From: Styela clava
Lineage: Eukaryota; Chordata; Ascidiacea; Stolidobranchia; Styelidae
Assembly (NCBI RefSeq): GCF_964204865.1
Contig: NC_135251.1
Location: 18,228,001 to 18,292,000 of the forward strand
Direction: 5' to 3'
DNA: 64,000 bases
Below the pieces are notes generated by a model, which searched no databases, was not told where the DNA came from, and was given only the letters and a program-made list of their open reading frames with translations. Position numbers and translations under genes: made by a program. Below, one piece after another: positions 1,093 to 55,100 of the stretch. Every line of letters starts with the position of its first letter. The stretch's first letter is position 1.

Positions 1093-4000
1093 ATGAGAAT
1101 GAAAAACACAGAAAATTATCAATATACTGGAAATTATGGCGATGACATCATGAGAGGAAATGAAGAAGCAAATCCATTAACCTGGCAACGAGAACTTAAT
1201 TCTGGGAATATTGGTTCTTCTCATGATGGCGAAAAGAACAATGACGTCACCATAAATAAAAAGGTGAGGGAATATAAGACTCAAAACACTACAACAAATA
1301 CTGTCACTCGGAGTGAAGAAAATAACTCTAAAGTTGCTGGGAGCCATTAATTAAGCACTAAATATATATATATATATATACCGTATGCTAATATACAGAA
1401 TAAAAATCTATAGCACAAATTATTTTACTGAATTGGTTTCATTAGTTTAATAAATAAACCCCTTTAAGAATTGCATTCGCGCATAATTTAGCCAACTCTT
1501 CGGGTATATATGCTAAGTACCGAAGATGGAGTGCAAAATTGAATCGCTCTGATATTGACATTCGTAAAGAAATTGCCGTACTCTTATTCGTTCATGTAAC
1601 TGCTGGTCGGTGACGGCTTACTTAACTAACTAATTTGTCACATACCCAGCAACACCTATAACTCAACTCGAGTGACTAAATCACCATGACAGCTTTCTTA
1701 TCCCCACATTTAAAAAAATTAATCTATATATATTAGAATTAGATGCATATAATTTTTGTCACTTTGACCAGTATCTAAATCCTTATAAATACCTTTAACC
1801 AAACAAATTGTGGTAGAGCAGTGTGGCAATCATGTCGTTATATTTCTGGCAAATTGGATTATCGGAATATTTCTGGCAAAGTGTGTAGTCATTTTAGGTC
1901 TTTACTAAAGCATCGAGAATTTTAACTATTCAAACAATTGCATGTTTTCAGCGATGCCAACTAGATATTTTTCTTTGAGTACTTTTAAGTACGTGTTAGG
2001 TGCATGACCGGTATAAACTTCAGTGTGTTAGCGTGTATTTTCTATATACTATTTGTGAATTGTGCGATTGTTGTTGTATTAGCAATGAACTCAATCAAAA
2101 GTACTACTACATTTCAGTCCGGCATTTCATTAGACCATAGTCCGAACAATTTGAATTATCATTCTAATTATTACCACTTTTATTCATGATTAAATTTTGA
2201 AAATTTATTGTATGCAGACCAACTGTAAGCATCCCAAAAAGCATCGCATGGTAACCTCAGCTTGGACCAGAAAAAGTCGTCGAAAACCCACAATTGTGAT
2301 TTTAGTGATTGCATTCGTTTTTTTCATTCTACTCGCGTCTGCTCTGATCGTAAATTTATATTTCAAGATGAAAGACTATTTTAACGTCAATATAGGTAAG
2401 GCTTTTAGTGAGTATTTATTCCCATTCATTACAGATATTACCACACTTGTTTTAATATGTCGAGGTAAATTTGCGACGGAAAAAAATTATCGCGAGCAGA
2501 GTTATATGTCAGGTCAGACTTTCACGTAAACCGTGAAGGTTTACGACCATACTTTTGAAAATTTTATATGTCCTTTGCGGACGAATAGCCATTTCAAGCA
2601 CCGATGAAGTAGAAAGTTCAACTTCAAAAGTAAGATGACATAGTGGTGACATAATAGTACGTGAATCAAAATTTTATAACTGACCCATGTTTGTTTCGAT
2701 TCCATGTGCTAAAATAGTCTTAGATTGTTCCGACAATTAAAAAAAAACGCACAAAACGAATCCTAAACACACAAACTATAAAACGAGAATATCGGTCGGA
2801 GACCGAAGACTTATCGATCTTAGATCGGTAATTAGTTAATAACTCGCTAATTATACGACATATTTAACCCAAAATCTATAGACTTCTGGTCCGAGGTAAG
2901 ATGCATGCACATGCAAAATTTGGAGCAGATTCAACCGTGCGTTCGTGAGGGATATCGCGTTCATCTAACAGACAAACAGACAAACATACAAACAGACAGA
3001 CAGACAAACAGACAAATACCTATCAACATACTTACCGATCTTAAGATCGATAAGTAATGACATACACTTATCCAGCCCCAGGGTTTGTCTCAAAATTTGC
3101 AGCGATAGTTGAAACGATTAAAGACGTGCACTCGCGTAAAGATTGGAAAATGTCGTAAACTGAAGCAATCAAAATTAAATAATGAATTTCACAACATTAA
3201 AAGCTATTTTAGAATACTAAATACTTTCTTTAAAAACTTTTGTGGGGAAATGTTTTCTATTCATTTCAATCCAGTTGGTTGTAATTTGTTCCAATGCGCA
3301 GGTCGACTGTTGTAATTCGCTTTTGAATGATTTATTGAATAAGGTTTAGATCGAGGGGTACCTATAAATATTTCTTGTATAAATGTATGAGATTAACATT
3401 GAACTACGATTAACATTCTACGAACTACGATTAACATTCTATCGCACTTCAGTTAGTAGTATTAATATAGTCACAGCATCGAAGGATCAAAAATACAAAG
3501 GGTGATGGACAGTAGCTATATAAAGACATTGTTACTTTACATGATATATAGTCGACAAGTATATGATGGTAAATGACTTTATAGTGAATTCTATACGCAA
3601 TAAAATACTATCGTTTAAATTTATTAGCGATGTAATATCGTCAGGCTAATAACCGAATTGCGTAAGTCATTTTTGGCGATTTTGAGTTTTTTATAAAATA
3701 GGTATTTATGTAATGCGCACCTGTCTGTTAACTCAGATTTTATTAAGAATTACGGGACCCAAAAAATTGAAATTTAGTATGACATGCACATTTGTGCAAT
3801 TGTTTCGTCATTATGAATTTTCATTGTTTCTGTAGGACTATTGTGACGTCACCAAGACAAAATAACTTCGGCGAAGTATTTTCAAGAAATTGCCACTCAG
3901 ATTCTAGTTTAGCGCTTATATATTTGAATTTATACTACAGTATAAGAAGGCGTGCACTTGTAATATTCACTTTTCGGGTCCAATTCAACTTGGTTGGCTT

Positions 4001-7000
4001 TTATTTTGGGTGCATTGCTGTTTTATTCTTTATATTTAATCTTAGTCTTATTTCGGTGGGTGTGGAGAGCGTGTTATATTGATGAAATATATATTTTTAA
4101 ACAGGAAAAATAATGTAATTGAAACAGATTAGCTGTTTTGGGGATTAGACATCGTAGATACTGAGAATTACATTCGTTTTTGGAATGTATGGTTTTCAGG
4201 ACTGGTGCATATAGTCACGTTGCGTAATTGCGTATATCCCCAAGTCATAGACACATTTCTGCCTAAGTCACAGTGTGCCATTATGACGTCACATAACTGC
4301 GTCATACAAATTAACTTGGATCCGGCAGCGATCAAAAAATTGAACAATGGCAAATTATTGACGTTCAATGGCATAACAATATCATTAGGAATTTTTTTAC
4401 GTTTTTCTCAAAACTGCTAAAAATGACTTACGCAATTCGGTTATTAGCGTGACGATATGAAAATTGTTGGTATAGTATGTTAAGTTAGCCCTTCGACCGT
4501 TATTCTCAGTATCAGTGTCCCGTTGTTGCTTTTCTACTCATATATATGGAGTGATCATGTATAATGATATCTAATTTACAGAATATCCGGGTGTCGATGT
4601 AACGGAGCCAACGCTGATTTCAACCAGCACGGCTTCCTCGACAAATATCTATGCAACACCATCTGTAGTCAATTCTACTTCAGCTTATACAACCGTTCCT
4701 GCGACAGTGATACCTACAGGATTGAAGGTAAGCAAGATGCACAGATGAATTGTGATCATCCCTAATTAAATTAAAAATCCAGTAAAAAATATTTATTTAC
4801 CAAATTGAATGGATTATTGTACTATACCCATTTAGACAAAGTATCTGTACAAAAATAGTCACCTTGGTTTAAATAGTTTCTAGCGCATATTAAATATTAT
4901 CTGCTAGTATTTATTCTGAAGTAGCCTTTAATTTCTATTTTCAGGTTCCACAAGTACCGTATTCTGCAACGACATATACCTATACAACATCCGAAGGACA
5001 GACGTCCTCGTTGGCAATCTCAAATCCCTATTTAGAAACAGCGCCAAGTTTAACAACGAGGTTGGTTCTAAAACTGATAATATATATAATTAGGCTTACC
5101 ATACGCCCCGGTTTAGCCAGGACAGTCCCGGTTTTGACAAGCTGTCCCGGCGTCCCGCCCGGTAGACTTAAATGTCCCGGTTATGTAGCGTGGCAGTCAA
5201 AAACAATTTTTTCATATGATATTATCACAAAGTTATTTTCTTAACGGAAGCCTCCAATTTATCTCTGATTCACTAGTTAACAGAGGGAGAGAGAACTGCT
5301 GTTTTGTTGTGTCATAGGCAGTGACGTAGCAAGACTCTCGTGGAAATGACCCTAAAAACTCTCGGACATAAGCTAAAACGATTTTTTTATTTTGTCAAAA
5401 AGCATAGCATGCCGTTATTGAAAGACAATGGTAACCTAATATTTGCCGTTTATCTTGGTTACTTTAATTTTTTCATACGTGCTCCCTCCTCTGCCATTTT
5501 TCTGCGTTTCTGTGCGCCACTGAGAGGTTTTGCTTTCGACATCATTCTGACAGCCTTCGTAATTTTGCCGGTGCGAACAACCACAAGACGCGAAAAATCG
5601 ACGACTCCCTGGCATTGTTACGTAACGAAACGATTTGAGAACTAACATCAACGTTATAAGATGTGCATTAACAGATTATCTGGTTTTGCAATGCAGCTTT
5701 CGGTTTTGCGGCTTAAATTTCTAAATTCTAACCGCTTGGGCCCCTCCCGCGACCGCGGGGGTGGATGCTACGCCACTGGTCATAGGTTTTATAATTATGT
5801 TAATTGCGATAATTTGACACACAATGTTAACTGACCTGTCGATAAATTATCAAAATGCCAAATGGACGCGTAGAAAGACGAGGGACAATAATGTTTTTTT
5901 TCAAACTCAAAAATAAAACTGAAACGAGCCTTTACGAGACCGGCATAGGATTTGCGGCTCATTTACCTTAAAACCGAATTCAACATCATTCCGTGTCTCT
6001 CTTGTGTCGATTATTGAAATGTTCAAATAATTGACTGCTTTTATAAATACGGTAATGTTTGGCGACTGCGCGTACGAATTAATTTATTTAGGTAATTTAA
6101 TGCCCGGTATCTACTCGCAAATATATGATAGAAGTTTCAGATATTACTTAGCCTCAGAATCGAACCAAAGTTAGTCCGATCCGCACTGTCCCGGTTTTTT
6201 GTTCCAGATATATGGTAAGCCTATATATAATGTGTTTGGTGTATCCATGCCCTTTACATATATTCATAAATAAGAGCCGCAACATTTTACAATTGATTTG
6301 TTCCAGACGTAAAGCTTGTTTTGTTTGATAAATTGGAACAATATTTTTGAGCACAAGAATTTCATGGAAGAAGTTTTTTTCGGTAACTTTGGTCGTTAAA
6401 TTTTGATTTAAAACAATACTTATTCGTGTATTGAAGTTTTAAATTTTGGTACCCCCGTAGTGTGTGTATCGGGTTAGGGTAAGCCATAATTTTATTACGA
6501 TTTTTCCTTAAATTAGTTCTATTACAAGTTCGGGGACTGTCTGTGTTAGCCAAGTAAATATACCGCCTGATAATAGGTTTCAGTCCCTTTACACAACTTG
6601 ATGTAAAGTAGACTAACAAAATTAGTTAACTCCATATTGATACACACACTTCTGGAGCCAATTTACTACAGCATTTTAACTTTCTGATACACATACTGAC
6701 TTGAAAATACATTTTATTGTGCATGCAACAGAATAATTCAATATAGCACCAAGACAACACCAAGTCCCACGACGTTCGATGTAACAACTCAATATGGTGA
6801 ATTTACAACAATTGTGGAAAAAACGCCAACAAGTGGTAAATTTGAATATAGAAATAGTGTCATTTTATTTTTAAAGTCTTGTATAAAAGATATAATGAAA
6901 GTAAATGAGATTTTTAGAAAAAAGCACTCATATTTGTTTAAAATTTACATCTAACATGATCAAACTACCTCCCGCGGTCCAAATCCGGCCCGCTTGGTGA

Positions 7001-10000
7001 TTCAATCTGGCCCGCCTGATGTTGCCACAACCAAACTTTGATGGTTTAGCTCAAGGAATTTGTTGAAATTGCGATTAAATTTAGTTATGGCACGAAGCTT
7101 ATTGTTTTTCACATTTGCTTTTGTAAGACTGTGAATATTGTTTATAAAATGTAACTTCTTACGTCACACTTACATGGCCCGCCAGTCTAGGTGGACAAAA
7201 TGTTTGGCCCCTGATCTAGATACAACGCGGTTTTGCGGCGTTCTTATATATATTCTGGGATTCACGCGCGCAGGGTATATGCATATTTTATATGCAGTAT
7301 CGTTACTCGATATTTAATTTTTATTTTATTTTTTTGATAAGTTCTTTGGCAAACAGTAAAATTTTACAAGACAATACCTGGTTTACCTATTGAGAATTCA
7401 AAATCAATTTTCCTATTAACAGTTCCCATATTTTACATGAGTGGGCCATTTACATTTCATGAAGCGATAGAAGCTTGCGAAAGGGAAGGGACAAAACTAG
7501 CGTTAGAAGAAGATATAAATCAAGCTTGGAAAGGAGGATATAATAGGTGAAAATCTTATTTTTAACCAGAATATGATGCGGTTATTTCGGACCATACTTG
7601 ACTGAAGTAGTTTTCAATATATGATTAATTGTATGGATACAATAGAAAAAACAAATCAAGTATTTGCCTCGTAATGATGATGATTTTTGTACGCTAGCTA
7701 CAACTACAATTTCATTTCATTATAGTAATTTTGTCATCAAAACGTACTACTGAGTAAAAAGAAAAAATGACTTGTGGATCGAATGTTTTATAATGTATAC
7801 ATATATTTTTATTCTAAATTTTTAATAGTTATGCTATTTTCTCATTTTGAATCTGTAGCTTTGTCTGCTTTCCACAACCCTTCAATTTTTTTAAATGGTT
7901 GAATATCACGATTTAGAGCAATAAATTTTTTGACATGAATTATTTGCTGAGCAGAGGCTAACTTTTAATTACACCAGGTGCACTTTTGGTTGGCTACGGG
8001 ATATGCATATTGGAATGATTATACAACAAGAATATGCGAGTATAGATTGTGAGAAAGGAGCAGTTGGAGCGATTTATAAACCACCAAGAGAACCGATTAA
8101 TAAATATAGTGGAGCGTATTGTACAAAAGGTATGTGACGTAACATGTACAAAACTATGGTATAACGATAGATTATGGCTACGTTCAGGCGGTGTTCAAAT
8201 TTGAGGTTGAAATTAGGCAGCAAACTTCAGGAAATGAGGCTTTGTTTTTATACAGAAGTCTTGGGGTATTCCAGATAAACCTGCTTTAGCGCTTTTTAAA
8301 ATTAATTTTAGGTTTGAATCAGGTTCTACATATTTTACGGTCACAAATTTATTTAGCCTACAATTTTAACACAAACTCCATCAATTCTAGAGCTCCACGG
8401 AATTACCTAAAAACGTTAAACAGTTCTCATGAACATGGCATATTTTAAACAGCCAAAGCAGCATATTACCGAAATATAATAGATTTCCCGTTGGCATTAT
8501 TTTTCAATATTATTTTTTATCTTTTCAACATACCGACACAAAACCTTGGCTTAATGGCAATGCCGATTCGATTCGTGGTAATGGGTAAGTTGCGCCATCT
8601 ACCGGGCCAAAATAGAGTTGTTCTTAACGTAGAGATGAGACGCTTCTTCATTAGGAAGGGGCTAGAGACGTCGATTCTAACGAGAATATTTTGAATAAAT
8701 CTCATTTTAGACATACTATCTGTATTTAGGTCCTATATTTCGCCTGCTTGATAGACGCTAAGACGCTCGTTATTGTTACAGTGGCGAAATATTTTACTTC
8801 TTTAACCAAGTGTTATTGACAGTAAGTGTAACCGGTTTCATGCAAGAATCATGCCGCCGTTAGCGTATCATTGGTCCCTTTTCAGTAAAGTGTTTGTTGA
8901 GCTCGGATTAATTTTTACAAAATGACGGAACTGTTTTAGGAAATAAAAACTATCTTTTACAGGTAATCTCAACAATCCTGGAATGAAGTCTATGTCTGTG
9001 GGGTCGAATGCGAATAAAACTGTGAATTGGTGGGTAACCAATGATCCTGCAGATATCTACAACCTGCGCCACACTCTGATGATTGCTAAATCAAATGATG
9101 ACTCCTCCCGTTTTCCTTTGATGATGTCGCTTAAGTCTGTCTACACTTGTTGCAATTTCTTCAATATTACATACAATAATGTTGGTGGTTCTCCAACTCC
9201 TTTCGTGAAGCAACGATAGTAAGTCAGTTGTATTACAAATTATATTTAGCAGGCCTCTAGGGTGACCGAAAAAACAAAAACCATAAATTTATTTTACGAA
9301 AATGAAATTTATTTAATTTTGTTTACTTTCGGACTTCCGTATGTGTAAGATTGTACTCATTGTAAGTTGTAAGTTTTAGGCTGATCAGTAGGAATTGGGG
9401 CGTCGAGTGAGCACTTCATTCACTGACTTTATATCCCTACATTTTAATGTGGGGGGGGGGGGTGATTGAGGGACAATGTGTAATCCGAAATATCTTCAAA
9501 TAATTGGTGAACTCTCGCGGCTGCAATTGTAGAAAAAATGGAGAACTCATCGGAGAGGAGTATGCAGTGATTTCCCAACACCCCCCCCCCCCCTAAAATT
9601 TCAAACACCCCCCTAATTTTGAGGTGCGATTCTACACTGTAATTCCTAACTCAAGTATAATTGTATTCAAATATAACGCCTATGGCATATTCATCAGTGT
9701 AGATGAGGGGTTCCAAACCGCAGTCTGCGGGCCAATTACGGCCCGCGTGACGATTTAAAATGGCCCGCCGAACTTGAGTGAAATAGTTTAACCCTTCATG
9801 TGGTACCTTTTGAGTTTTAGATACCGTCTATTGTTAGTTGCAAATTACTATCAGTTGCAAATTACTTGTTGAAATGTAGTAGTATATATTTACGGTTGAA
9901 AGCCGTGCTTGTTATCTATTTCCCGGGAGTTCTATCAGCTAAATATTTTAATTATTGATTTCATTACATAACAAACTGCGATGCTAAGTGTATCTAAAAT

Positions 10001-12957
10001 CAAGCTTAGAGCCTATTTTGGTGCCTATTTCTCAACATTTTCTCAGGGCGCTTAAGCGCGCCCTGAACCCCAGCCGTGTCGTCCCGCACTTTTCCTCGCT
10101 GCCCTTTTCTGGCCCACAATTTTATTCTGCTGTGGATTTTGGCTCGCTGTCAATCAACTTGGGGGCCCCTCTTGTACATCGTTTCTTAAATACATACCAA
10201 TTTTTTAGGAATACAAATAGCCTAGTTTTTTCTCAAATAGCAAATTATTTACCACCCCCTAAATTTCAAAACACCCCTCCTAAATGGAAAAGCTGGGGAA
10301 CATACTGGGAGTATGTGCGAGTGATAGACACTTCCGCGCAACGGATGCAAGTTTCTCTACAATGCCAAGAAGGTCATTTGAAACATATTCTAGAGATAAC
10401 ATAACTTTTGTGCAAAATCGTCCTAAAGTATTGAAAATTTTGGGTACAATCATAAACAAACAGAAGTTCAAGTGTAAATAAAAATTAAATGAGTATTATT
10501 CATTCTTATCGAATTAAGAAACGTAAAAGTTTTTTTCACAGAATAGACAATTTTAACTGATAAATCAATATACATGCAAAGACGAGGTATATATATTTTA
10601 CTAAAACTGAGGACGCTCTCACATTTTTCTATCAAGAGATTACAACTCGCTTTACTTATATTTTGTAAAGAAGAATATTCTTTCTTGTAGCTCTGTGGAA
10701 TATTTCAAAACATTGGTTGAAATGTATCACAGGGAGTTCGCATCGGTGAGAGTTTTAACTCACGTAACTGCAAAGTATGACGCTATGATGAAATATGGAG
10801 CGGCAACAACAAACAGGTAAACTATGTTACTAATATTTTTACGTGAAAAAAAACTTTAAGCAAGACTCGACATTATTGCTAATTCTGTTTAACAGGCACG
10901 AAATAATATCGTCTCTCGTCAACAAAGCGAAAAACCTTAAACTCGATGGGCTTATATTGGATTATGAACCCAGGGAGAGTTATTCTAGAGAGCATGCTGT
11001 CACTTACCGTATATTTCTAGACGACTTGGCATCTGAGCTGAGCAAGTACAACATGTCCCTGGGAACTGTAGTTTCTTCTTGGGGTATATTAAAGGTATGA
11101 CTGATTCTAAGTAATATATCGTCAGGCTAATAACCGAATTGCGTAAGTCATTTTTGGCGGTTTTGAGTTTTTTTTATAAAATAGGTATTTATGTAATGCT
11201 GCGCACCTGTCTGTTAACTCAGATTTTGTTTTAAGAATTCCGAAACCCATGAAAATGGAGATTTTGTATGACATGCACATTTGTGCAATTGTTTCGTCAT
11301 AATGAATTATCGGTGTTACCACAGGACTATTGTGACGTCACAAAGGCAAAATAACCTCGGCGAAGGATTTTCGAGTGTTTGCATCTCAGATTAGCTATTT
11401 TGGGGATTAGACATCGTAGATACTGAGAATTATATTCGTTATTGGATTGTTTGGTTTTTAGGACTGGTGTACATAGTCAAGTTACAAAATTGCGTATGTC
11501 CCCAAGTCATAGACACCTTTCTGCGTAAGTCACAGTGCGTCATTATGACGTCACATAACTGCGTCATACAAATTACCTTACATCCGGCTACGATCAAAAA
11601 ATTGAACCTCGGCAAATTATTGACTCTCAATGGCATATCAATATCATTAGGAAGTTTTTTACGTTTTTCTCAAAACTGCTAAAAATGACTTACGCAATTC
11701 GGTTATTAGCGTGACATTATGTTTGTTTCTCGTTTTCTGATATTGCAGTATCTAACTTCGCTATTTCTATCAGAATAGTTGAAGAATAAACGACATTCTT
11801 GCATTATATATATTTTGTTTCATTTCCAGAAAATATGTAACTGGAGACTTACAACTGCTTTTGGTCATAATGCTTCAGTTATTTTGTCAATATTTTCATC
11901 AGTTTATTCCTCTAATATCTCCACAACCAACGTCTCAATCCAAAAAAGTAATCGTTAGATAAAACAGTAGCAAAGTACTTTGTTGAACGTTCTTAGTTTT
12001 TACTGTTCATTCAAGTTCCTGCCATTTTTAACACGCGTATTAATATATCTTATTTTCAGTACTACGATATTTTCGCAAATAGTAAAGTTAACTTCATAGG
12101 ATCAATGAGCAGCACATATTATGGGCATAATACAGATTCCAATAAACAACATGTGCTGGACATGATGAAAGAAATTGATACAGATAGGTAGGTTTATCTG
12201 AATTTCAAACGTACAGCTAAACCCCAACTAGTGAGTAATTTAATAACTTTGATAATTCACCTCATCGATACGCGTCTGAGAATTTGTGGCCACAAGTTCA
12301 CGGAGAAGATTACTTGTGGACCATTCCATCATTTGATTTGGTTCACGCTTTCACTTTAAAAAAAAGTCGTCACAAAAATCAAAAATTAAACGAGGTAAAA
12401 AATGTTTGAAAATACCGGAAATCAACCAAAATATTCACACTCAGATTGAGATAATAATTTACCAGGCTTAAATTTAATAATTGGTGTTTCAATAAAATTC
12501 GTTTGCCGAAAAAAATTATTTAGTTATTACGAATTCTTCGCTATTACCGGTGTGAAAATCGGTTATGAATTGACGTCAGTTATGAATTAATAAAATTTAT
12601 TAATCGCGAAATAAAATTGACAAAATACCAACTTCAATATAATAATCTCATGTACAACAATTAGGGAGGATGGAATAATTAGTTTTAAGTTATTTATAAT
12701 TTTGTCTCTATATATGATTGCTTTCTTTATATCGAAGGCTGGAAATTGGTCTTGGACTGATGTACAATGACCAGGTATTGCCCAAGCCAAAGCGAAACTA
12801 CAGGTGGAGTGAAGAGAGACTCGAAGACTTCATCAGGTGGTCTGATAACCAAGGAATACGTAGAGTTCACGTGTATCCGGGACAATGGAGATCTCATAAA
12901 GCTTCGGAAAAATATTTTTTACGGACTTTATCTAATTTTTCAGAGGGCAAGAGCTGA
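1093..12957 (+). CDS. Type II membrane protein: mucin-like stalk, Link domain and GH18-like TIM-barrel domain (12 exons, 634 aa)
   Basis: Exons 1093-1263, 2218-2395, 4582-4727, 4945-5060, 6747-6835, 7423-7546, 7978-8129, 8963-9218, 10691-10816, 10896-11094, 12060-12187 and 12738-12957 join in phase (1905 nt including TGA). Residues 1-80 are a polar, basic tail with no signal peptide. Residues about 82-104 form a membrane helix (PTIVILVIAFVFFILLASAL) preceded by RKSRRK, which suggests type II topology. Residues 117-233 are a Thr/Ser-rich stalk. Residues 234-326 are a Link domain with its four cysteines (C252, C276, C299, C323) and the CTFGW motif. Residues about 335-634 look like a TIM-barrel glycosidase. 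LDGLILDYEP carries D470, D475 and E477, like the GH18 DxxDxDxE motif, but the central Asp is replaced by Ile473. Inference: a cell-surface protein that binds and perhaps cleaves a glycan such as hyaluronan. Start, splice sites and activity are unproven. A poly(A) signal lies at 13030. Confidence 0.8.
2810..3054. repeat. Foldback-type repeat with internal (ACAG)n tract
   Basis: The left arm at 2810-2830 (cttatcgatcttagatcggt) is an inverted match to the right arm at 3033-3054, with one extra base in the right arm. Between the arms lie a segment ending in gatatcgcgttcat and a run of ACAG/ACAA tetranucleotides (about 2976-3017). A GATATCGCGTT-like segment before an ACAG run resembles the 3' tails of retroposons in many animals (known pattern; the assignment is inference). 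The repeat lies in intron 2 of the Link-domain gene. Confidence 0.55.
3638..4455. mobile_element. TA-flanked MITE, copy 1 (818 bp)
   Basis: It starts with tcgtcaggctaataaccg and ends with the inverted counterpart cggttattagcgtgacga. The terminal inverted repeats run about 45-50 bp, and a TA flanks each end (3636-3637 and 4456-4457), as expected for Tc1/mariner-type targets. Related copies lie at 11119-11717 and 24394-25218. The open frames inside do not look like a transposase, so it is non-autonomous. It sits in intron 2 of the Link-domain gene. Confidence 0.85.
5091..6223. mobile_element. hAT-type non-autonomous element (outer, host of a nested insertion)
   Basis: It begins taggcttaccata and ends tatggtaagccta, which are inverted repeats. 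Both sides are flanked by the 8-bp direct repeat tatataat (5083-5090 and 6224-6231), the hAT hallmark. It lies in intron 4 of the Link-domain gene, about 30 bp after the donor site. A second element (5319-5778) is inserted inside it. Cytosine-rich cccgg stretches occur near both ends. No transposase frame is evident. Confidence 0.88.
5319..5778. mobile_element. hAT-type MITE nested inside another hAT element (460 bp)
   Basis: The ends are cagtgacgtagc and gctacgccactg, imperfect inverted repeats of a very common hAT terminal type. The 8-bp direct repeat gtcatagg is perfect on both sides (5311-5318 and 5779-5786). The insertion is inside the older element 5091-6223, so it is the younger of the two. 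The frames at 5340-5645 (+) and 5436-5651 (-) are chance. Confidence 0.9.
6965..7225. repeat. Degenerate hAT-like repeat fragment rich in CGGCCCGC
   Basis: Segments such as tccggcccgcttgg, ctggcccgcctgatg and catggcccgccag resemble the ends of decayed hAT elements that begin with cagggg and cggcccgc strings. No clean terminal repeats or target duplication could be placed. It lies in intron 5 of the Link-domain gene. A related fragment starts near 9705. Confidence 0.35.
9219..10690. repeat. Repeat-rich intron 8 (G and C homopolymers, hAT- and mariner-like scraps)
   Basis: The intron holds a 12-base G run (9451-9462) and a 13-base C run (9581-9593) about 120 bp apart. A hAT-like end (aggggttccaaaccgcag) starts at about 9705. 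A stretch at about 10375-10480 (gaaacatattctagaga, then aacagaagttcaagtgt) matches the mariner-like remnant at 43498-43960. The 138-residue frame at 9988-10404 spans these scraps and is not considered a gene. Confidence 0.5.
11119..11717. mobile_element. TA-flanked MITE, copy 2, internally deleted (599 bp)
   Basis: It has the same termini as the copy at 3638-4455 (tcgtcaggctaataaccg ... cggttattagcgtgacat) with flanking TA. It lies in intron 10 of the Link-domain gene, 24 bp after the donor. Compared with copies 1 and 3 it lacks about 200 bp of the centre. The join falls at a short cagatt sequence that copy 1 has at both edges of the missing piece. Confidence 0.85.
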
Positions 12958-13215: not shown

Positions 13216-14086
13216 TCGCAATGATGGTTGTTTATTGTTAATCAGTGTTTCATAAAGTTTTTATTGACACATTTAATACACGTCTAAACGTTTAATTAAA
13301 AATATAATTACTCTATTTAATACGCTTCTATATATATATATGCACCATTAGTTGCACGAAGCGCATCCAGACGGTACTCATTTCCTGCCATGTTCGTTGT
13401 AACATAGCCTCATCAATGGTTGCAATGGCATTGAAATTTTTTTGTTTAAGGTTCCGTACTTTTGTTCGATACACAATATCCTTTACGTAACCCCAAAGAA
13501 AGAAGTCCAGGGGAGTGATGTCTGGTGAAATTGGTGGCCATGAAATCAGCCCATTCTTTCCAATCCATCGGTCGGGAAAATATGTTGCACCATCTTGCTG
13601 AAATATGATGGTTGGTTGAAATTCAATCAGTTGTGGTGCCACATATTCGCTCGGAAGGTTAAGGTAAATATTTGCAGCAATTGATGCCTCGTTAACGAAG
13701 AAAAATGGCCCAATTATTTGATTGCACATGATTCCACACCAAACATTCACTTTTAGACTATCACGCTGAAGTTCTCTACTCGCATGGGGGGTTTTCCGAT
13801 CCCAAATTCTTACATTGTGTTTGTTTTATTTACCATGAACGAATTGAAAGACGTAATGGTGGGTCTCTTCCATACTTACGCCTGTAGTTTCGCTGAACAT
13901 CTCTGATTTTGTCTCAATTAACCAGGATACACATTGCACTTTTTTGAGGAGTAGTCATTCTATGGGGGTTCGGGTCATATAATTTAATCAGTAAAAAATT
14001 TAAGAAACTTTATCTGAAACAATTAAATTTATTGTCAATAAAAACTTTATGAAATACCGATTAACACAAAACAACCCTCATAGCGA
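13216..14086 (-). mobile_element. Mariner-type transposon, decayed and internally deleted (871 bp)
   Basis: Long terminal inverted repeats of about 54 bp: the left end starts tcgcaatgatggttg and contains catAAAGTTTTTATTGACA-like sequence, and the right end is its inverted match, ending accctcatagcga. Each end is flanked by TA (13214-13215 and 14087-14088), the mariner target. It contains a broken minus-strand transposase and lies just downstream of the Link-domain gene. Confidence 0.88.
13328..13960 (-). pseudogene. Mariner transposase pseudogene
   Basis: Read from 13960 down. The N-terminal part begins MTTPQKSAMCILVN, meets a stop, then continues RDVQRNYRRKYGRDPP, the usual mariner N-terminal region. 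After a deletion the frame from about 13815 gives HASRELQRDSLKVNVWCGI, FQQDGA and SPDITPLDFFLWGYVKD. These carry the second and third catalytic Asp of the D,D34D family. Only about 23 residues separate those two Asp instead of about 34, so this part is shortened too. The middle of the protein, including the first catalytic Asp, is missing. It cannot be active. Confidence 0.85.
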
Positions 14087-15264: not shown

Positions 15265-16544
15265 TTAATCATCGGGCTTTGTGCCAAAAATGAGTTTGAA
15301 ATCTGATTTCACTTCTCCATTGTAAATATTCTTCTCTTTTATATTCTCAAATCCGGCTTCCTGTAAAGCATTGATGTACCTTTTTGGTTCAAACATCCAG
15401 CTTTCTAACAGACCTTTATCTTTCACCATTTCAAGCTTTTCAGGATGCATTCCAGCTATCATCAATCCACCGGGTTTCATGACTCGTTTTATTTCGTTGA
15501 TTGAATTTGCCAAGCTAGGCCAGAAATAAAAGCAATGAACGTGGAATACTTTGTGTATAGTCGCATCAGGAATCGACATTTTAGCAACGTCTTCATTTAG
15601 TATTGTGAGTTTCCCAGATGCTACGTCCTTCTTCAATGACTTCCGCGCCCATTTACACACGTCTTCTGAATAATCGACACCATAAAGTGAACCTTTGCCA
15701 TTTCTGATAGTGTTTTGCAGAACATATTCAAGTCCATCACCTGTCAATTATAATTTTAATAACAGAAACTGTTTGAACCAATGCTTGTTGGATCTACAGC
15801 TGGTCTTAACATGTGTTATGTGCACAGGACTGACATTTTCAAATGGCTATATATTTAAGAGAAAATATTTGTCCGAAATTTAATCCTGTTTCTGACTGTC
15901 AATTCGGACTTGTGTTTTCACACATGAATAGGTTTTGGAACTTTTGAGCACTTTCAACAAAACATATTATCACTTGTGAAATAATCGTCTACTGATTAGT
16001 GTTCGCTCGTTTGCATCCACCAATGTGCATAATGATATCAAACAACAATAAATTGCGGCTTCCATTTCAACAAATCAATATTTAAAAATTTTAAATAGGG
16101 CTTTCTCTAGTATAATTCTGAATAATTCGAATTCAAAATGCGATAGTGGTCGTAATTTTAATAGCTCTAGCCAGAAAAATTGACGAAATGAATTTTAGTT
16201 TATTGTGAACTAATCAGTATGTTGGAGGTGATGTTTGTCAGCTGATTACTCAAAATTCTGATTGCATTCCTACTCAAGTGTTTTTCATAAAATTCTCTGA
16301 TCATTATTTTAAAACAAAAATATTCAGTGGGATTTTCTACTTTGGACTCACCAAGACCGAATCCAATCTCCAGTATATTTTCATCAGCCCCAGCATTTGT
16401 CGCACGAGCAACGTCTATTTCAATTGTTGAATTGCCTTTCAGCAGACTCTTTCTTGCGATGAATCCCCAAAAACCTGAAGATGGCTTCCTGATTTGCTCT
16501 TTGATGTATTTCCTAGCAAATGGCATTTCAACAAGCTTCAACAT
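15265..16544 (-). CDS. Class I SAM-dependent methyltransferase (2 exons, 222 aa)
   Basis: Exon 1 is 16544-16352 and exon 2 is 15740-15265. The junction (G|GT) is in phase and falls inside the cofactor motif. The joined protein reads ENILEIGFGLGDGLEYVL at residues 56-73, which is motif I (E-x-G-x-G-x-G) of class I methyltransferases. It is followed by GVDYSEDV (the acidic residue that binds the ribose) and INEDVAKM-type and KPGGLMIAG motifs, as in the Methyltransf_11 family. The predicted role is methyl transfer from S-adenosylmethionine to an unknown, probably small-molecule, substrate. No signal peptide or membrane segment is seen. The start ATG has the family-like lead MLKLVEMPFARKYIK. The frame 15265-15747 read alone would give a false internal ATG that lies in the intron and exon edge. 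Confidence 0.87.
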
Positions 16545-18245
16545 TTTGTCAGTAGCCTATATAATATGCTTTGCAAGTCTATACTAAAATTGTCAAGTTC
16601 CCTCTGGCAAAAATAAACATATTAGAAAAAGCACAAAACGCAACAGCGACAGTAGATTAATGAGGTTGGACGTTTTAAACTGACTTTTCTAACTTCGCTG
16701 TGTTATATAATTTCAGTGATAATATACAACTTTTCAAATCCAAGTCGAAAATTGAATATCTATCTGTTGATTGAATATATATATATCCTTGCATTTTGAA
16801 AAACATCGTACATTATAAGATCTGACACTAAACTTGGCTAGATATACTTGACTGCACAATAGTTTTTAAATGTGTTGACTCATCTCTAAAATTGCGATTC
16901 TAGACCGCATGATGCGAGATAAGCCATCATTTTAAATATTGACATTGGGTTTTCTTATTTACTTTCAAGAATTCATGTGTTGGCTGCCTATGGTTAACAT
17001 GCACAGATTTCTGCTTTAAATAAACAAGGAAGCCCGGAAAGTGCGGAAGGCCTATATTTCATAGTCATCGTGGAAGGTAAATTTTTACTTTATTCAATAC
17101 AAGAACTGCAATGATATTCCTATTATTACAAATATTCCTAAATTATTTGTTTGAAAAACACTGCAGAAAATTTATGTGATATTAACTGCAAAATAAACTT
17201 GTAAGGCTGCATTAGATGCTCACACAGAAAGATAAAAATAAAATGAATATATATATATATAAAGCAAAATACTAAATCCAGTTTAAGAGTTTGGTCTGAC
17301 GTTTTTCTGAAGTTATGCATTGCCTCAGTAGACTGTTTACTAGTGCGATATTCAGTATTCAAACAGTATGCATCAACAGCAGACCTATACGCTTTTGAGA
17401 AATCGTGGTCTGCATTTTTGATATTTTGGTACAGACAATTTCACATCAGTTTCCAACGAACAAATGCAGCAAATCAACATAGTAACAACATGTTTCTTGT
17501 TTCATATTGGTCAGCTGAAGCTTGAAAATATGTAACTTCAACAAAAATACAGATAACAAATACTAACACAGCCTTATAAATGAAAGAATTTGTGCACACC
17601 ACCATCAATAATAATGGCAATCCTGTCGAATGTATTGTATATGGAATGTATTGAGTGGAACTGTATGTACAAAATATTATTCTTACATGATATATGCGCC
17701 GTTTGTAGTCCTGTGTATAAGCCTTCCCCTTTAAAATAAGGCATGTTCTATAGCGTGATTTTTTTTTATCTAGTTGATAGCAAGAAATCTCTCCTACACG
17801 TTTTAAATGATTAATATTCTATGTAGGTAGCGATTTTTTTTAAATAGAAACTTGTTATTTATAAGAAAATGGATATCGGTTTATATTTGAAAATTTCGTA
17901 ATTTTCTACTTTACAATTTTGTTTTTGATAAATGGGAATAAAATACATCCCCCTAAATAACCCCTAGCGTTATTTTCGAAATTGAAATAGGACCCTGTCT
18001 TATTTTCGGGGAAACACCGTATGTAGTACTTCATAAATATTTCTTCTTTCTAGACCCGTTGTTCTTAAACTTTGCTAGCCTTTCGCACCTCTACGTTACT
18101 CTAGGAGATTTTGTCGAAACCCAAACTGCCTTCAATAGACAGAGTACGGATTTGTTGGAGAGTATGAATTTGCTGGGTATAAAGCAACATAAATTGCAGT
18201 GAGGGAATAACTACACATAATTATCCGAACATTTCTCGTTCTTGG
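16545..18245. other. Intergenic, few decayed repeats
   Basis: Presumed promoter of the methyltransferase, then gene-free AT-rich DNA. At about 17935-18020 there is a stretch (cctgtcttattttcgggg, cccctaaataacccct) resembling a widespread decayed DNA-transposon repeat. At about 18055-18125 there is a hAT-like scrap (cccgttgttcttaaac). Frames in this stretch show no domain. Confidence 0.4.
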
Positions 18246-19065: not shown

Positions 19066-19651
19066 ATGCTGAAGATACTTTTATTGACGTTAGCTTGCTG
19101 TTTCATATTTGCTGATGCTTTGCGATGTAGTTGTAGAGGAGTAAAATGCGGAAGTTTACGATGTGGACCACGCGTTGGCAAAGTTAGAATTTCGTGCGGG
19201 TTAGTGATCTTTCTTATGTAGTGTTTCCACTAACTCCATTTCTGGTATTAGCTGAGAATAATGAAGTTTATCATTGTCAGATGTTGCCCTGTATGCGCTA
19301 AGCAAGAAGGTGATGAATGCGGAGGAGCATGGTTTCATCGAGGAAAATGTGATACTTGTTTAGAATGCGTCAACAAAAAATGTGTGCAGGTAAGCCAAAT
19401 TCTATTCATTGTATAAATTACAAAGATATAATTATTTCGATTTCGATCTCTACTATGTCTCTGAAATAAAATTACTTACCTAAAATTGCAATATTTTCAG
19501 ATATATGATTTATTGCCATAATCAATTTGAATACATGGTTGTAACAGCTTGGAAAATCAAATATCTTCACTTTTTATTTTAGACGAAAGACGATGAAGAT
19601 TGTAATCAGGAACACCAACAAATTCCAGAAGAATCCACTCTTTTTGATTGA
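19066..19651 (+). CDS. Secreted single IGFBP-N-like domain protein (3 exons, 103 aa)
   Basis: Exons 19066-19199, 19281-19389 and 19583-19651 join in phase. Residues 1-18 (MLKILLLTLACCFIFADA) are a signal peptide. The mature part is cysteine-rich. SCGCCPVCAKQEGDECGG (residues 43-60) matches the core GCGCCxxCA...CG of the insulin-like growth factor binding protein N-terminal domain, preceded by CSCRGVKCGSLRC and followed by paired cysteines to C79. The tail (82-103) is acidic, with one more cysteine. No thyroglobulin, Kazal or Ig domain follows, so it resembles the single IGFBP-domain proteins of invertebrates. Likely role: an extracellular binding protein for an insulin-like or other ligand (inference). 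An AATAAA at 19731 supports the 3' end. Confidence 0.85.
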
Positions 19652-35101: not shown

Positions 35102-38100
35102 TCAGAACTTTAGATTGAATCCAACTCCATGTTTACTTATTCCATGCTTTGGTGCAGTTAATTGAAATCCTGTGACTAATCCTTCTTCATCATTCTACAG
35201 AAAAAAAGTTCAATCTTCAAACTTTGAATTATAAATTCTGTTGTACTCTAGTGATTCGAAGATATGAAATGTTCGTACATAAAACGTACAGGTTTCAATA
35301 ATAGTCTAAGAAGCATGATGAACTTTAAATCATGAAATTTTGAGCAGATGTCCATTATTATAAAATCAAGGCAAGAGCAACACTTGAAACAGCATAGTTC
35401 CCATCAAACCCCATTTCCAGTTTACGACGTCGTCATTTCAAGTTTCTAGTGTTTTAAACAACCTTCGTATTGTAGCAATAAAACAGTTAAGTATAATAAA
35501 ATGCAAGATTTACTGACCAAAAATCGAAGCTCAAAGAAGCAATAGAACAACATTTGTATAGCATAAACACCTTTTTCATCAAGTGGTGCATACAAGCTGA
35601 TATGCAAGAAGTTATCATAATTTTGGAAGGAATATAATTTTTCCAGTTAAAAGAAAATCCTACCAATTTATAATACTTTTGAGTGAAAAGGCATTCATCT
35701 TTAGCTTAGGTAAGTCTAATATGCAGACACCTGGTCTCGGCCCTGACGAGACTTTCAAATGTAAAGTCTTGATAAATAACCACCATATATATATACATGG
35801 AATTTTGTATACCAAAGAGGACTTTTTACGTAAAACATAAGAATCAGGAACAAAACTCACTATAAGACTGTTGTATTCTTTTCCACCTTGTGGAGCTTTA
35901 GGACTGTCAACAACTTTCTTCACCCTGGGTTGTTCACTCTTTGCAGGCCACGTTGGAAACATAGCAGGATCAACGGGTTGTGGAGTTTCATGAAACCAGT
36001 CATGCTTTAACGCTCCTTGGGCAGTGATGCGCTTGCTTGGGCAGTATGTGAGAAACCTAAATCAGAATTAAACGATGCAGGATTACTGATAGTCTATAAC
36101 TCTATGTTCTCGAATAAACACTCTCCAAAGCAAAATATCAAACATACTTTAATGGGTAAGTTCAAGAAGAAGAAAAAATCAACAAATTTAGAGTGAAGAT
36201 TTGTTTTAAATAGTCTGGCTGACAGAGAGGATTTACATGAGCTAAGAACCACTAAGCTCATAGTGTTTATGAATACACAAAGCTTGATTTTATACACTGT
36301 TATAAGTATTGTTATTGAGTATTGTCCCAACTTCCAATTAATCATCATTACATAAACAAACCTGGAACTTCATGTAAGGAGATGCAAAATAGATTTCGAC
36401 ATTGGTATCGAGTTTTTATTTTAATCTATATTTTAAGAAACGATTTGAAAAGTGACAATCAGTTGGCGTTACACTGACAACTTATCTAAAATATTTTTTT
36501 TATATAACACTTATTCACTTTTGCTCCAAACAAGGCCCTTTCCAAGCAGCCACTGATAGATCATGTTACTTTTATTTGGAAAGACCGAAATCTTTGCACC
36601 ATCCACCATTACAAAAAGTGTTATCTTTAAATGACCTGTTCAGAAGTTTGAATCCTTTCTCAGTTATGCTTGTTCCAAATCTTTTTCTTAACTGATTATA
36701 TGGATAATTTACAAAAGTCGCTTTTCTCACCATCGGCAACTCATCGTAACCTGGCCAAATTTTTTCGCTTGGTGTACCGAGTTCCTGAAATACATCAAGT
36801 CGGTGTTTATAAAATATTTACAAATGAAATTACCGGAAACATATAAAATATTATGAATTTACCTTAAATATTAAGTTGAGTTGCATTATTTCAGATTTCC
36901 CAGGAAACAAAGGTTTCATTGTTAGAAGTTCAGCAAATATACAACCAACACTCCATATGTCTATATATGTTGAATATTCCTAAAGAGAAAAATACATTGA
37001 AAAGATACCAAGATTTCCGAACTTTATGTTGAGAGTTGAGACTCATAGTTAAACTTTTGACATTGACCTTGACATCATACCTTGCATCCTAGTAATAACT
37101 CAGGAGATCGATACCATAATGTAACAACAATGGGTGTATAAGGTTTCAATGGTGATCCGTACTCCCTCGCAAGTCCAAAATCACCTGTGAAATAAAAAAA
37201 ACAATTATTAGTGCTCAGGGTATTTTGCTGCAGTTGAACATGTGAATGAACTGCTAATTGACTTGTTCTCACCAACGTGGTTTAAACTTGCAACTGATTT
37301 ACCAATCACTATTTATGTTTAGTGTGCATTGTACACTTACTTCGTGATAATTGGTTGCTTAATTGATTGCTTCTTGCTATGGTTCACTATTTTGCACTCT
37401 GGTTTAAATCAGTTTTTTCAGCTAGTTACTGGTGCAGTTATTTCTTAAGTTTCTAAGATTATCTGTTCTGACTAAGACTTATTTAAATGCAAGTGAAGTG
37501 ATATGTATATTCATGCTTGCTTGTAGTACTTATTTTCATGATAATCTTTTATTGTTTGTTTAATGTAAGCCACTGTGCCTGACTGGTATCTGGATTGAAA
37601 CAATTTGGGCAAATCTGTCTGTTTCATATCGGATAGTATAAATAGACATGGTAGACGAGGTTAATTTGTCAATGCACAAACTATCACCATTAACTACTGG
37701 GGAACACAAATATTATAAACTTACATTATATACTAGTCATATTCAGAAACTATGCCATAATACATTAGAAAATTGAATCAATAATCCACGATTATTATTG
37801 AAATCCCTTAACAAGTACACATGGAACATGTACTCACCAATTTTCAATATTCCTCTGTGGCTCAATAACAAATTAGATGTTTTTAAATCTCTGTGTAATA
37901 TCCAGTTATCATGTAGATGATGGACACCTCTTAATAATTGAATCATCAATGTTTTAACTTCACCTAAATAAGAGAATTTTTATTTCATTGGTTATTCAAA
38001 AGGCTAGCTCTTATTTGTGCGAGAATGCACCTAAACTTTATCATATCTTAAAGCATTTACCAATCCAGAAATGGGGAGCTGGTTTGAAACCACAATGTCT

Positions 38101-49199: not shown

Positions 49200-52100
49200 T
49201 GGTCGTTTCATGAAAACCTCCAATAAAGGCAGCATTGCAACACCATTGGTGAAAAGTAGAAACCTCAAAGATTCGATTTCAATATGTCAGAACAGTCTCA
49301 GCACGTTTTGACTTGACCATATATAATACTAAACATAGCGTATATTCTTCAATTTTTAAAACAATGTATATACAACAAATTTGAAACTGATTTTGTATTT
49401 CAATTAAAATTACTGAATAGTTCATCAAAGAAGATATTTTTCTCTTTGTCACACAACAATAATGCACTTCATTAAACTTAGAATAAGTTGAGTAAAGTCT
49501 GAAATACTGAAAAAAAATGTACGCCCTCTTGTGGATTCTTTGATAAATTTCACAAAGTTATCGTTTTCGAAAGGGCAATTTCTCAAAAACCGCCAATAAA
49601 GGCAGCACTACGACACATTCGAAGAAAAGCAGATACCCTATAGATTCGATTTTAATATGTCAGAACAGTAGCAGCACGTTTTGACTTGGCCAAATATAAT
49701 TCCAAACATAGAGTATATTTTTAATTTCATTGAAAAAAATGTAGATTGACATATTTAAAAACGGTTTGGTATTTCAACTAAATTTACTGGAAAATTCATC
49801 AAATACTTTCTTCTCTTGGGTATACAACAAAACTGTACGTTTATTAAACTTGGAATTAGTGTGCAAATGTTAAAATGCCAAAAAATGATTTGACGCCCTC
49901 TTGTGGATTCTTTTCGGAATTTCGAAAAATTATTGTTTTTGAAAAGGGCGATTTCTCAAAAACCGCCAATAAAGGCAGCACTACGACACATTCGGAGTAA
50001 AGCAGATACCTAATAGATTTGATTTTATTATGTCAGAACAGTAGCAGCACGTTTTGACTTGGCCATATATAATACCAAACATAGCGTGTATTCAAACTTT
50101 TATAAACAATGCAGACGTAACATATTTAAAAACGGTTTGGTATTTCAAATAAATTTCCTAGATAATTTATCAAACATCTTTTTCTCTTGGACATACATAT
50201 ATACTATACGTTCATTAAACTTGGAATAAGTTGCGGAAAGTATAAAATACCAAAAAGCATTTTACGTCCTCTTGTGGATTTTTTTCAAAATTTCAAAAAA
50301 ATTATCGTAATTGAAATAGCGATTTCTCGGAAACCGCCAATAAAGGCAGCACTACGACACATTTGGCGAGAAGCAGATACCTTATAGATTCGATTTTAAT
50401 AAGTCAGAACAGTAGCAGCACGTTTTGAGTTGGTCATATATAATACCAAACATAGCGTATAATTTTTAATTTTATCAACCATGTATATGTAACATATTTA
50501 AAAACGGTTAGGTATTTCAACTTAATTTACTGGATAATTCATCAAACACTTTTCTCTCTTGGTCATACATCAAAACTGTATGTTCCTTAAACTTGGAATT
50601 ATTGTGCAAATCCTAAAATGCCAAAAAATGATTTGACGCCCTCTTGTGGATTATTTTCGGAATTTCGAAAAATTATCGTTTTTGAAAAGGCGATTTCTCG
50701 AAAACCGCCAATAAAGGCATCACTACGACACATTCGGAGTAAAGCAGATACCTTATAGATTTTATTTTATTATGTCAGAACAGTAGCAGCACGTTTTGAC
50801 TTGGCCATATATAATACCAAACATAGCGTGTATTCAAACTTTTATAAACAATGCAGACGTAACATATTTAAAAACGGTTTGGTATTTCAAATAAATTTCC
50901 TAGATAATTTATCAAACATATTTTTCTCTTGGACATACATATATACTATACGTTCATTAAACTTGGAATAAGTTGCGGAAAGTATAAAATACCAAAAAGC
51001 ATTTTACGTCCTCTTGTGGATTTTTTTCAAAATTTCAAAAAATTATCGTAATTGAAATAGCGATTTCTCGGAAACCGCCAATAAAGGAAGCACTACGACA
51101 CATTTGGAGAGAAGCAGATACCTTATAGATTCGATTTTAATAATCAGAACAGTAGCAGCACGTTTTGAGTTGGCCATATATAATACCAAACATAGCGTAT
51201 AATTTTTAATTTTATCAACCATGTATATGTAACATATTTAAAAACGGTTAGGTATTTCAACTTAATTTACTGGATAATTCATCAAACACTTTTCTCTCTT
51301 GGTCATACATCAAAACTGTATGTTCAATAAACTTGGAATTAGTGTGCAAATCTTAAAATGTCAAAAAATGATTTGACGCTCCTTGTGGATCCTTTTCGGA
51401 ATTTCGAAAAATTATCGTTTTTGAAAGGGCGATTTCTCAAAAACCGCCAATAAAGGCAGCACTACGACACATTCGGAGTAAAGCAGATACCTTATAGATT
51501 CGATTTTAATATGTCAGAACAGTAGCAGCACGTTTTGACTTGGCCATATATAATTCCAAACATAGCGTATATTTTCAATTTTGTTTAAAAATGTAGATGT
51601 GACATATTTAAAAACGGTTTGGTATTTCAACTAAATTTACTGGAAAATTCATCAAATACTTTCTTCTCTTGGGTATACAACAAAACTGTACGTTCATTAA
51701 ACTTGGAATTAGTGTGCAAATCTTAAAATGTCAAAAAATGATTTGACGCTCCTTGTGGATCCTTTTCGGAATTTCGAAAAATTATCGTTTTTGAAAGGGC
51801 GATTTCTCAAAAACCGCCAATAAAGGCAGCACTACGACACATTCGGAGTAAAGCAGATACCTTATAGATTTGATTTCATTATGTCAGAACAGTAGCAGCA
51901 CGTTTTGACTTGGTCATATATAATACCAAACATAGCGTGTATTTAAACTTTTATAAAAAATGCAGACGTAACATATTTAAAAACGGTTTGATATTTCAAC
52001 TAAATTTTCTAGATAATTTATCAAACATCTTTTACTCTTGGACATATATATATACTATTCGTTCATTAAACTTGGAAAAAGGTTGCGGAAAGTATAAAAT

Positions 52101-55100
52101 ACCAAAAAGCATTTTACGTCCTCTTGTGGATTACTTTCAAAACTCCAAAAAATTATGGTAATTGAAATAGCGATTTCTCGAAAACCGCCAATAAAGGCAG
52201 CACTACGACACATTCGGAGTAAAGCAGATACCTAATAGATTTGATTTTATTATGTCAGAACAGTAGCAGCACGTTTTGACTCGGCCATATATAATACCAA
52301 ACATAGCGTGTATTCAAACTTTTATAAACAATGCAGTTGTAAAATATTTAAAAACGGTTTGGTATTTCAAATAAATTTCCTAGATAATTTATCAAACATC
52401 TTTTTCTCTTGGACATACATATATACTATACGTTCATTAAACTTGGAATAAGTTGCGGAAAGTATAAAATACCAAAAAGCATTTTACGTCCTTTTGTGGA
52501 TTATTTTCAAAATTTCAAAAAATTATCGTAATTGAAATAGCGATTTCACGAAAACCGCCAATAAAGGCAGCATTACGACACATTTGGAGAAAAGCAAATA
52601 CCTTATAAATTCTATTTTAATATGTCAGAACAGTAGCAGCACGTTTTGACTTGGCAATATATAATTCCAAACATAGCGTATATTTTCAATTTTGTTAAAA
52701 AATGTAGATGTGACATATTTAAAAACGGTTTGGTATTTCAACTAAATTTACTGGAAAATTCATCAAATACTTTCTTCTCTTGGGTATACAACAAAACTGT
52801 ACGTTCATTAAACTTGGAATTAGTGTGCAAATCTTAAAATGTCAAAAAATGATTTGACGCTCCTTGTGGATCCTTTTCGGAATTTCGAAAAATTATCGTT
52901 TTTGAAAGGGCGATTTCTCAAAAACCGCCAATAAAGGCAGCACTACGACACATTCGGAGTAAAGCAGATACCTTATAGATTTGATTTCATTATGTCAGAA
53001 CAGTAGCAGCACGTTTTGACTTGGCCATATATAATACCAAACATAGCGTATAATTTTCAATTTTATCAACTATGTAGATGTAACATATTCAAAAACGGTT
53101 AGGTATTTCAACTTAATTTACTGGATAATTCATCAAACACTTTTCTCTCTTGGTCATACATCAAAACTGTATGTTCATTAAACTTGGAATAAGACGGCGA
53201 ATCCTAAAATAACAAAAAATGATTTGACGCCCTCTTGTGGATTTTTTTCGAAGTTTTAAAAAAAATATCGTTTTTGAAAGGGCGATTTCTCAAAAACCGC
53301 CAATAAAGGCAACACTACGACACATTCGGAGTAAAGCAGGTACCTTATAGATTTGATTTCATTATGTCAGAACAGTAGCAGCACGTTTTAACTTGGCCAT
53401 ATATAATACCAAACATAGCGTGTATTCAAACTTTTATAAACAATGCAGACGTAACATATTTAAAAACGGTTTGGTATTTCAAATAAATTTCCTAGATAAT
53501 TTATCAAACATCTTTTTCTCTTGGACATACATATATACTATACGTTCATTAAACTTGGAATAAGTTGCGGAAAGTATAAAATACCAAAAAGCATTTTACG
53601 TCCTCTTGTGGATCATTTTCAAAATTTCAAAAAATTATCGTAATTGAAATTGCGATTTCTCGGAAACCGCCAATAAAGGCAGCACTACGACACATTTGAA
53701 GAGAAGCAGATACCTTATAGATTCGATTTTAATAAGTCAGAACAGTAGCAGCACGTTTTGAGTTGGCCATATATAATACCTAACATAGCGTATAATTTTT
53801 AATTTTATCAACCATGTATATGTAACATATTTAAAAACAGTTAGGTATTTCAACTTAATTTACTGGATAATTCATCAAACACTTTTCTCTCTTGGTCATA
53901 CATCAAAACTGCATGTTCAATAAACTTGGAATTATTGTGCAAATCCCAAAATGCCAAAAAATGATTTGACGCCCTCTTGTGGATTCTTTTCGGAATTTCG
54001 AAAATTTATCGTTTGTGAAAAGGCGATTTCTCAAAAACCGCCAATAAAGGCAGCACTACGACACATTCGGAGTAAAGCAGATACCTTATAGATTTGATTT
54101 CATTATGTCAGAACAGTAGCAGCACATTTTGACTCGGTCATATATAATACCAAACATAGCGTGTATTTAAACTTTTATAAACAATGCAGACGTAACATAT
54201 TTAAAAACGGTTTGATATTTCAACTAAATTTTCTAGAAAAGTTATCAAACATCTTTTTCTCTTGGACATACATATATATTATTCGTTCATTAAACTTGGA
54301 ATAAGTTAGGAAAGTATAAAATACCAAAAAGCATTTTATGTCCTCTTGTGGATTATTTTCAAAATTTCAAAAAATTATCGTTTTTGAAAAGGCGATTTCT
54401 CAAAAACCGCCAATAAAGGCATCACTACGACACATTCGGAGTAAAGCAGATACCTTATAGATTTGATTTCATTATGTCAGAACAGTAGCAGCACGTTTTG
54501 ACTTGGTCATATATAATACCAAACATAGCGTGTATTTAAACTTTTATAAACAATGCAGACGTAACATATTTAAAAACGGTTTGATATTTCAACTAAATTT
54601 TCTAGATAATTTATCAAACATCTTTTTCTCTTGGACATACATATATATTATTCGTTCATTAAACTTGGAATAAGTTACGGAAAGTATAAAATACCAAAAA
54701 GCATTTTACGTCCTCTTGTGGATTATTTTCAAAATTTCAAAAAATTATCGTTTTTGAAAAGGCGATTTCTCAAAAACCGCCAATAAAGGCATCACTACGA
54801 CACATTCGGAGTAAAGCAGATACCTTATAGATTTGATTTCATTATGTCAGAACAGTAGCAGCACGTTTTGACTTGGTCATATATAATACCAAACATAGCG
54901 TGTATTTAAACTTTTATAAAAAATGCAGACGTAACATATTTAAAAACGGTTTGATATTTCAACTAAATTTTCTAGATAATTTATCAAACATCTTTTTCTC
55001 TTGGACATATATATATACTATTCGTTCATTAAACTTGGAAAAAGGTTGCGGAAAGTATAAAATACCAAAAAGCATTTTACGTCCTCTTGTGGATTACTTT

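Follow-up and report, generated by a model that had tools for sequence, protein, structure and literature searches.

A Candidate Two-Headed Surface Protein Joining a Link Domain to a GH18-Like Barrel in the Ascidian Styela clava

Link domains have mostly been studied as hyaluronan binders of vertebrates. Aggrecan, LYVE-1, TSG-6, and CD44 have a Link domain with four cysteines in common; CD44 and LYVE-1 are type I membrane proteins, and TSG-6 and aggrecan are secreted. The GH18 family includes chitinases, chitolectins, GH18 endo-N-acetylglucosaminidases, and SleL-type lysins. The two kinds of domain meet in a pair of proteins: the GH18 chitolectin CHID1 interacts with the endocytic receptor stabilin-1, according to excerpts of a 2007 GH18 census (PMC1945033), and stabilin-1 carries a Link domain, according to excerpts of PMC12383584. 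Here, we describe a gene in a 64,000-nucleotide stretch of the 376.6-Mb genome of Styela clava (NC_135251.1, positions 18,228,001 to 18,292,000; hereafter the window), whose predicted product carries a Link domain and a GH18-like barrel on one chain.

We judge this to be a new domain architecture, in which two domains of known kinds are newly combined; neither domain is itself of a new kind. The evidence supports a two-headed surface protein well. As for its function, a tethered, glycosaminoglycan-binding GH18-like glycosidase is our preferred reading, with a probability of about 0.5, and a GH18-like lectin comes close behind.

Gene structure and domain order

The gene occupies positions 1093 to 12957 on the forward strand, in twelve exons that join without phase conflict; each of the 11 introns has GT-AG borders. 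The spliced coding sequence of 1920 bases, including the stop codon, gives a product of 639 amino acids. The exons are as follows (window positions).

1093..1263, forward: exon 1, start codon and presumed cytoplasmic tail, residues 1-57; same first residue in LOC120336905 isoform X1
2218..2395, forward: exon 2, basic stretch, anchor (residues about 83-105, bases 2293-2361), and start of the stalk
4582..4727, forward: exon 3, Ser/Thr-rich stalk
4945..5060, forward: exon 4, Ser/Thr-rich stalk
6732..6835, forward: exon 5, Ser/Thr-rich stalk; a phase-1 intron follows, directly before the Link module
7423..7546, forward: exon 6, first half of the Link domain (PF00193), from residue 239
7978..8129, forward: exon 7, second half of the Link domain (PF00193), to residue 330; a phase-1 intron follows
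8963..9218, forward: exon 8, N-terminal part of the predicted GH18-like barrel
10691..10816, forward: exon 9, barrel, including predicted beta-3
10896..11094, forward: exon 10, barrel, with predicted beta-4 carrying DGLILDYE (residues 475-482, bases 10945-10968) and predicted beta-5
12060..12187, forward: exon 11, barrel, with predicted beta-6 (FIGSMSSTYYG)
12738..12957, forward: exon 12, barrel, with predicted beta-7 and beta-8 (VHVYPGQW), and the stop codon

A database protein, "uncharacterized protein LOC120336905 isoform X1" of Styela clava (639 amino acids), matches the product end to end with 14 differences in 639 residues. These fall in the cytoplasmic part (6/82), the stalk (5/133), the Link part (2/92), and the barrel part (1/309), with none in the anchor (0/23). 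The gene model thus agrees with an annotation made by others that keeps exons 1 to 12 in one predicted protein, and the splice joins and this match bear out the original prediction of twelve exons without phase conflict. At the annotation level, no split between exons 1-7 and exons 8-12 is seen in this protein model.

Among 19-residue segments, the one beginning at residue 83 is the most hydrophobic, and the anchor (residues 83-105) contains no Lys or Arg. The preceding 82 residues hold 16 Lys and Arg and 9 Asp and Glu. A single N-terminal anchor that is preceded by basic residues on the presumed cytoplasmic side is what a type II protein has, and from these charges the C-terminal part would lie outside the cell. 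The stalk (residues 106-238) consists of Ser and Thr to 35%. Thus, the earlier proposal of anchor, stalk, Link domain, and barrel on one type II chain is supported, with the charges as the guide to its orientation.

The Link domain was recognized by PF00193 at residues 248-328 (54.6 bits, E value of 1.4e-14, cut-off of 27). A relative in Ciona intestinalis, "uncharacterized protein LOC100184569" (546 amino acids), covers 98% of residues 239-639 in the same domain order, and its own Link domain scores 51.6 bits against the same cut-off. Cysteines 257, 281, 304, and 328, the four that had been predicted, are all invariant between the two proteins. Exons 6 and 7, which encode the Link part, are flanked by phase-1 introns at residues 238.33 and 330.33. 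Such an arrangement is what exon shuffling of a 1-1 module leaves. A second Link gene in the same genome (contig C18, L003 4587-7190; Link domain, 62.6 bits) also has phase-1 introns on both sides; its N-terminus resembles a signal peptide, and its four joined exons contain no barrel. By eye, the exons after its Link domain look discoidin-like.

Gene prediction can merge neighbors, and the present model is known from sequence and annotation, so that a Link receptor gene (exons 1-7) and a barrel gene (exons 8-12) might have been wrongly joined. However, the junction recurs in the Ciona protein, and these two predictions come from separate genomes. Since the Ciona relative keeps the same order over 98% of residues 239-639, the fusion is unlikely to be the error of one model. 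In addition, exon 8 has, by eye, no signal peptide for separate secretion, and phase-1 introns bracket the Link module, in keeping with exon shuffling. We therefore consider a misjoining of two genes highly improbable.

Predicted fold and active site of the barrel

The predicted structure of the C-terminal part has a GH18-type (beta/alpha)8 fold, in line with the barrel proposed originally, and a non-barrel fold was not seen. For each of two models, all 50 entries listed by VIA-align were GH18 by title; both models are shallow, with low confidence, and VIA-align re-examines Foldseek's own matches only. The Foldseek list for one model held several non-GH18 TIM barrels among the GH18 entries (e.g., 3cqj at rank 7), and taken by itself, Foldseek would not settle the matter for that model. 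Sequence searches against solved structures gave no firm match. The single barrel sequence found aminopeptidase N (E values of 0.03-0.045) and then a chitinase (0.3), and the barrel alignment found chitinase 8hw6 (0.015), pantothenate synthetases (0.039 and 0.047), and 4wiw (0.062). In the model, 19 residues, mostly of low confidence, separate predicted beta-7 from alpha-7, and therefore the chitinase insertion domain is probably not there.

The GH18 beta-4 motif is DxxDxDxE. At the predicted end of beta-4, Styela has DGLILDYE (residues 475-482) and Ciona has DGMVVDYE. Thus, three of the four acidic residues (the first Asp, the third Asp, and the catalytic Glu) are kept in both species. The solved bacterial GH18 domain 4wiw shows the same pattern as Styela in the alignment (DGVVIDFE). 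Two chitinase-like loci in the Styela genome read FDGLDLDWE and FDGLDMDWE. At beta-6, MSST of Styela aligns with MCYD of 8hw6.

Between Styela and Ciona, the Link domain and the barrel are better conserved than the stalk. Within the barrel, identity reached 29/49 at the C-terminal strand ends, 17/49 at the N-terminal ends, and 54/159 elsewhere, and 3 of 256 circular shifts did as well; in this count, the windows and strands were chosen by us, beta-1 is unassigned, and a predicted strand at 81-84 (barrel-model numbering) was left out. With that strand added, 30/56 positions were identical and 8 of 256 shifts reached this level; when it replaced 66-70, the values were 28/49 and 3 of 256.

Not all observations fit the GH18 family. 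PF00704 (GH18) matched the window protein with 23.5 bits (E value of 5e-5), below its cut-off of 29.6; the second Styela version (24.4 bits) and the barrel alone (25.4 bits) also stayed under it, and no PF00704 match was listed for the Ciona relative in the Pfam search. The second Asp of the beta-4 motif is lost in both species, and the full DxxDxDxE occurs nowhere in either protein; neither do MxYD and SxGG. The supporting GH18 motifs are therefore altered, as judged by sequence. Furthermore, chitolectins are among the structural matches of the predicted barrel, and a mucin-like stalk with a Link domain on a surface protein looks receptor-like. In other family profiles, GH85 reached 13.2-15.7 bits against a cut-off of 22.2 and was rejected, and NCBIfam profiles gave weak, unrelated matches only.

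The lost second Asp, the missing MxYD, the chitolectin matches, and the receptor-like look favor a pseudoenzyme, that is, a barrel acting as a lectin like the chitolectins YKL-40, YKL-39, and Ym1 in a two-headed glycan receptor of the cell surface that has no hydrolase activity. Chitolectins often lose the catalytic Glu and the third Asp, whereas both are invariant in Styela and Ciona, and 4wiw, a bacterial GH18 domain, appears to share their pattern. Identity also peaks at the catalytic strand ends, although a lectin could show the same. The lectin is thus a serious contender, to which we give somewhat less than even odds. We lean slightly toward cutting rather than binding only, given that neither Glu482 nor Asp480 varies between the two species and that conservation is greatest on the catalytic face; catalysis by the barrel is plausible.

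The barrel stays below the profile cut-off and lacks both the complete DxxDxDxE and MxYD, and it is therefore not filed as a GH18 member; it is GH18-like by its predicted fold and part of the catalytic set, and it may nevertheless function as a GH18 enzyme does. Of the original prediction of a GH18-like, glycan-cutting barrel, the predicted fold and part of the catalytic residues stood; the family score, the second Asp, and MxYD did not.

Link ligand and proposed function

Among solved structures, the nearest relatives of the Link domain were aggrecan (E value of 1.2e-12), LYVE-1 (1.8e-6), and TSG-6 (5e-4), with CD44 far behind; a match to intimin (0.0084) spanned the stalk and the Link domain. 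Hyaluronan contains beta-linked N-acetylglucosamine. Both points favor a tethered hyaluronidase, i.e., a receptor for hyaluronan fused to an enzyme that cuts it. However, the binding residues argue otherwise. The eight hyaluronan contacts of TSG-6 given in excerpts of PMC3937638 are Lys11, Tyr12, His45, Tyr59, Lys63, Phe70, Tyr78, and Arg81. At these positions, in order, the alignment places Pro, Phe, Asn, Met, Gln, Lys, Lys, and Arg in Styela and Arg, Tyr, Glu, Tyr, Lys, Gly, Thr, and Lys in Ciona. Only one of the eight is thus identical in Styela (Arg81, with Tyr12 replaced by Phe), and three are identical in Ciona (Tyr12, Tyr59, and Lys63, with Lys11 replaced by Arg and Arg81 by Lys).

Because so few contacts are kept, hyaluronan is doubtful as a ligand and unlikely to be the main one. 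A sulfated, heparin-like glycosaminoglycan is more likely, a ligand class that we infer. In addition, no known hyaluronidase was among the structural matches listed for the barrel, which excludes nothing. In general, a tethered hyaluronidase seems improbable.

For the preferred glycosidase, the following mechanism is proposed. The cytoplasmic tail and one membrane helix would hold a type II glycoprotein at the cell surface, and the mucin-like stalk would carry two heads outwards, the Link domain and the compact GH18-like (beta/alpha)8 barrel. The Link domain would grip a glycosaminoglycan and hold the enzyme directly on, or close to, its substrate in the matrix. The barrel would then hydrolyze a glycan with beta-linked N-acetylglucosamine by the substrate-assisted mechanism of GH18, in which Glu482 would serve as the acid and Asp480 as its partner. 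Here, catalysis and substrate are what we infer, and the fold class is a prediction.

A more specific proposal is that the protein represents a GH18-like branch not known before, a Link-guided membrane-tethered glycosidase that cuts glycosaminoglycan or proteoglycan glycan at the ascidian surface; this we put forward as speculative, with odds clearly against it. If true, aiming a matrix-cutting enzyme would be an old role of the Link domain that is separate from hyaluronan.

Relatives, surroundings, and comparison with known systems

When residues 239-639 were searched against 5.8 billion proteins, 1767 candidates were obtained and two matched at an E value of up to 1, LOC120336905 and LOC100184569. 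The architecture was to be sought in other tunicates, and its Link and barrel part was thus found in the predicted Ciona protein; Styela belongs to the Stolidobranchia and Ciona to the Phlebobranchia, different ascidian orders. The barrel alone (459 candidates, none at an E value of up to 0.01) and the two-species barrel alignment (2032 candidates, none at up to 1) gave no match, in searches that skip proteins of more than about 540 amino acids (1.75 query lengths) and thus would miss both LOC120336905 and LOC100184569. The protein search needs shared five-residue words, and its misses are no proof of absence in lancelets, echinoderms, or other tunicates. For bacterial and archaeal genomes, two short patterns gave 75 matches, none of which was confirmed.

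The Styela genome was searched in six frames, exon by exon. One copy of the barrel was found: five of six matches at an E value of up to 10 were its own exons, and the sixth had an E value of 0.99. The GH18 family gave 13 matches, 11 in two clusters on contig C9, one on C3, and one on C18, with none at this gene, which lies on C2. The Link family gave one listed match, on C18, and the present gene was not listed. Since the single-exon search skipped this gene too, further Link or GH18 genes may have been missed.

According to the census excerpts, Ciona has three GH18 genes, one per animal group, with no further chitinase or chitolectin candidates, and an own CHID1 orthologue; the excerpts make no mention of a Link fusion (PMC1945033). 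If distinct from these three, the Ciona relative may be a fourth GH18-like gene, overlooked as too divergent. Open-licence literature searches listed nothing relevant for the Link and GH18-like combination or the gene name, and the words GH18, chitinase, glycosyl, and Styela are all absent from PMC12383584. Within these searches, the view that the protein is not yet described held.

Elsewhere in the window, the introns before exons 3 and 11 each hold a copy of an element (3635-4458 and 11113-11723) whose ends, about 52-55 bp long, are inverted; it resembles a short inverted-repeat transposon. At 13328-13825 (reverse strand), a 165-amino-acid open frame looks by eye like a piece of a mariner-type transposase, with no Pfam match at an E value of up to 0.1. 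An open frame at 15265-15747 (reverse) carries a Methyltransf_11 domain (E value of 3.3e-13), and another exon, judged by eye, may be located near 16350-16560. Also by eye, exons of an apparent small secreted cysteine-rich protein were noted at 19069-19651 (forward), and an open frame at 35660-36061 (reverse) begins like the C-terminus of a CDK-like protein kinase. Long arrays of a unit of about 370 bp (49213-58297, 24.6 copies; 58455-64000, 15 copies) fill the window at its right end. The whole window had no Rfam match at gathering thresholds.

The occurrence of a Link domain beside a GH18-like barrel in two ascidian orders offers a direct test of the earlier Link ligands. Compared with aggrecan, LYVE-1, TSG-6, and CD44, the Styela protein differs in its type II anchor, in the GH18-like barrel on the same chain, and in lacking most of the hyaluronan contacts. 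With the GH18 proteins it shares the predicted fold and the first Asp, third Asp, and Glu of beta-4; it differs from them in its score below the Pfam cut-off, the lost second Asp, the absence of MxYD and, in the model, of the chitinase insertion domain, and the joined Link domain. With CHID1 and stabilin-1 it shares the pairing of a GH18-type barrel with a Link domain, which are two separate proteins there and one chain in Styela.
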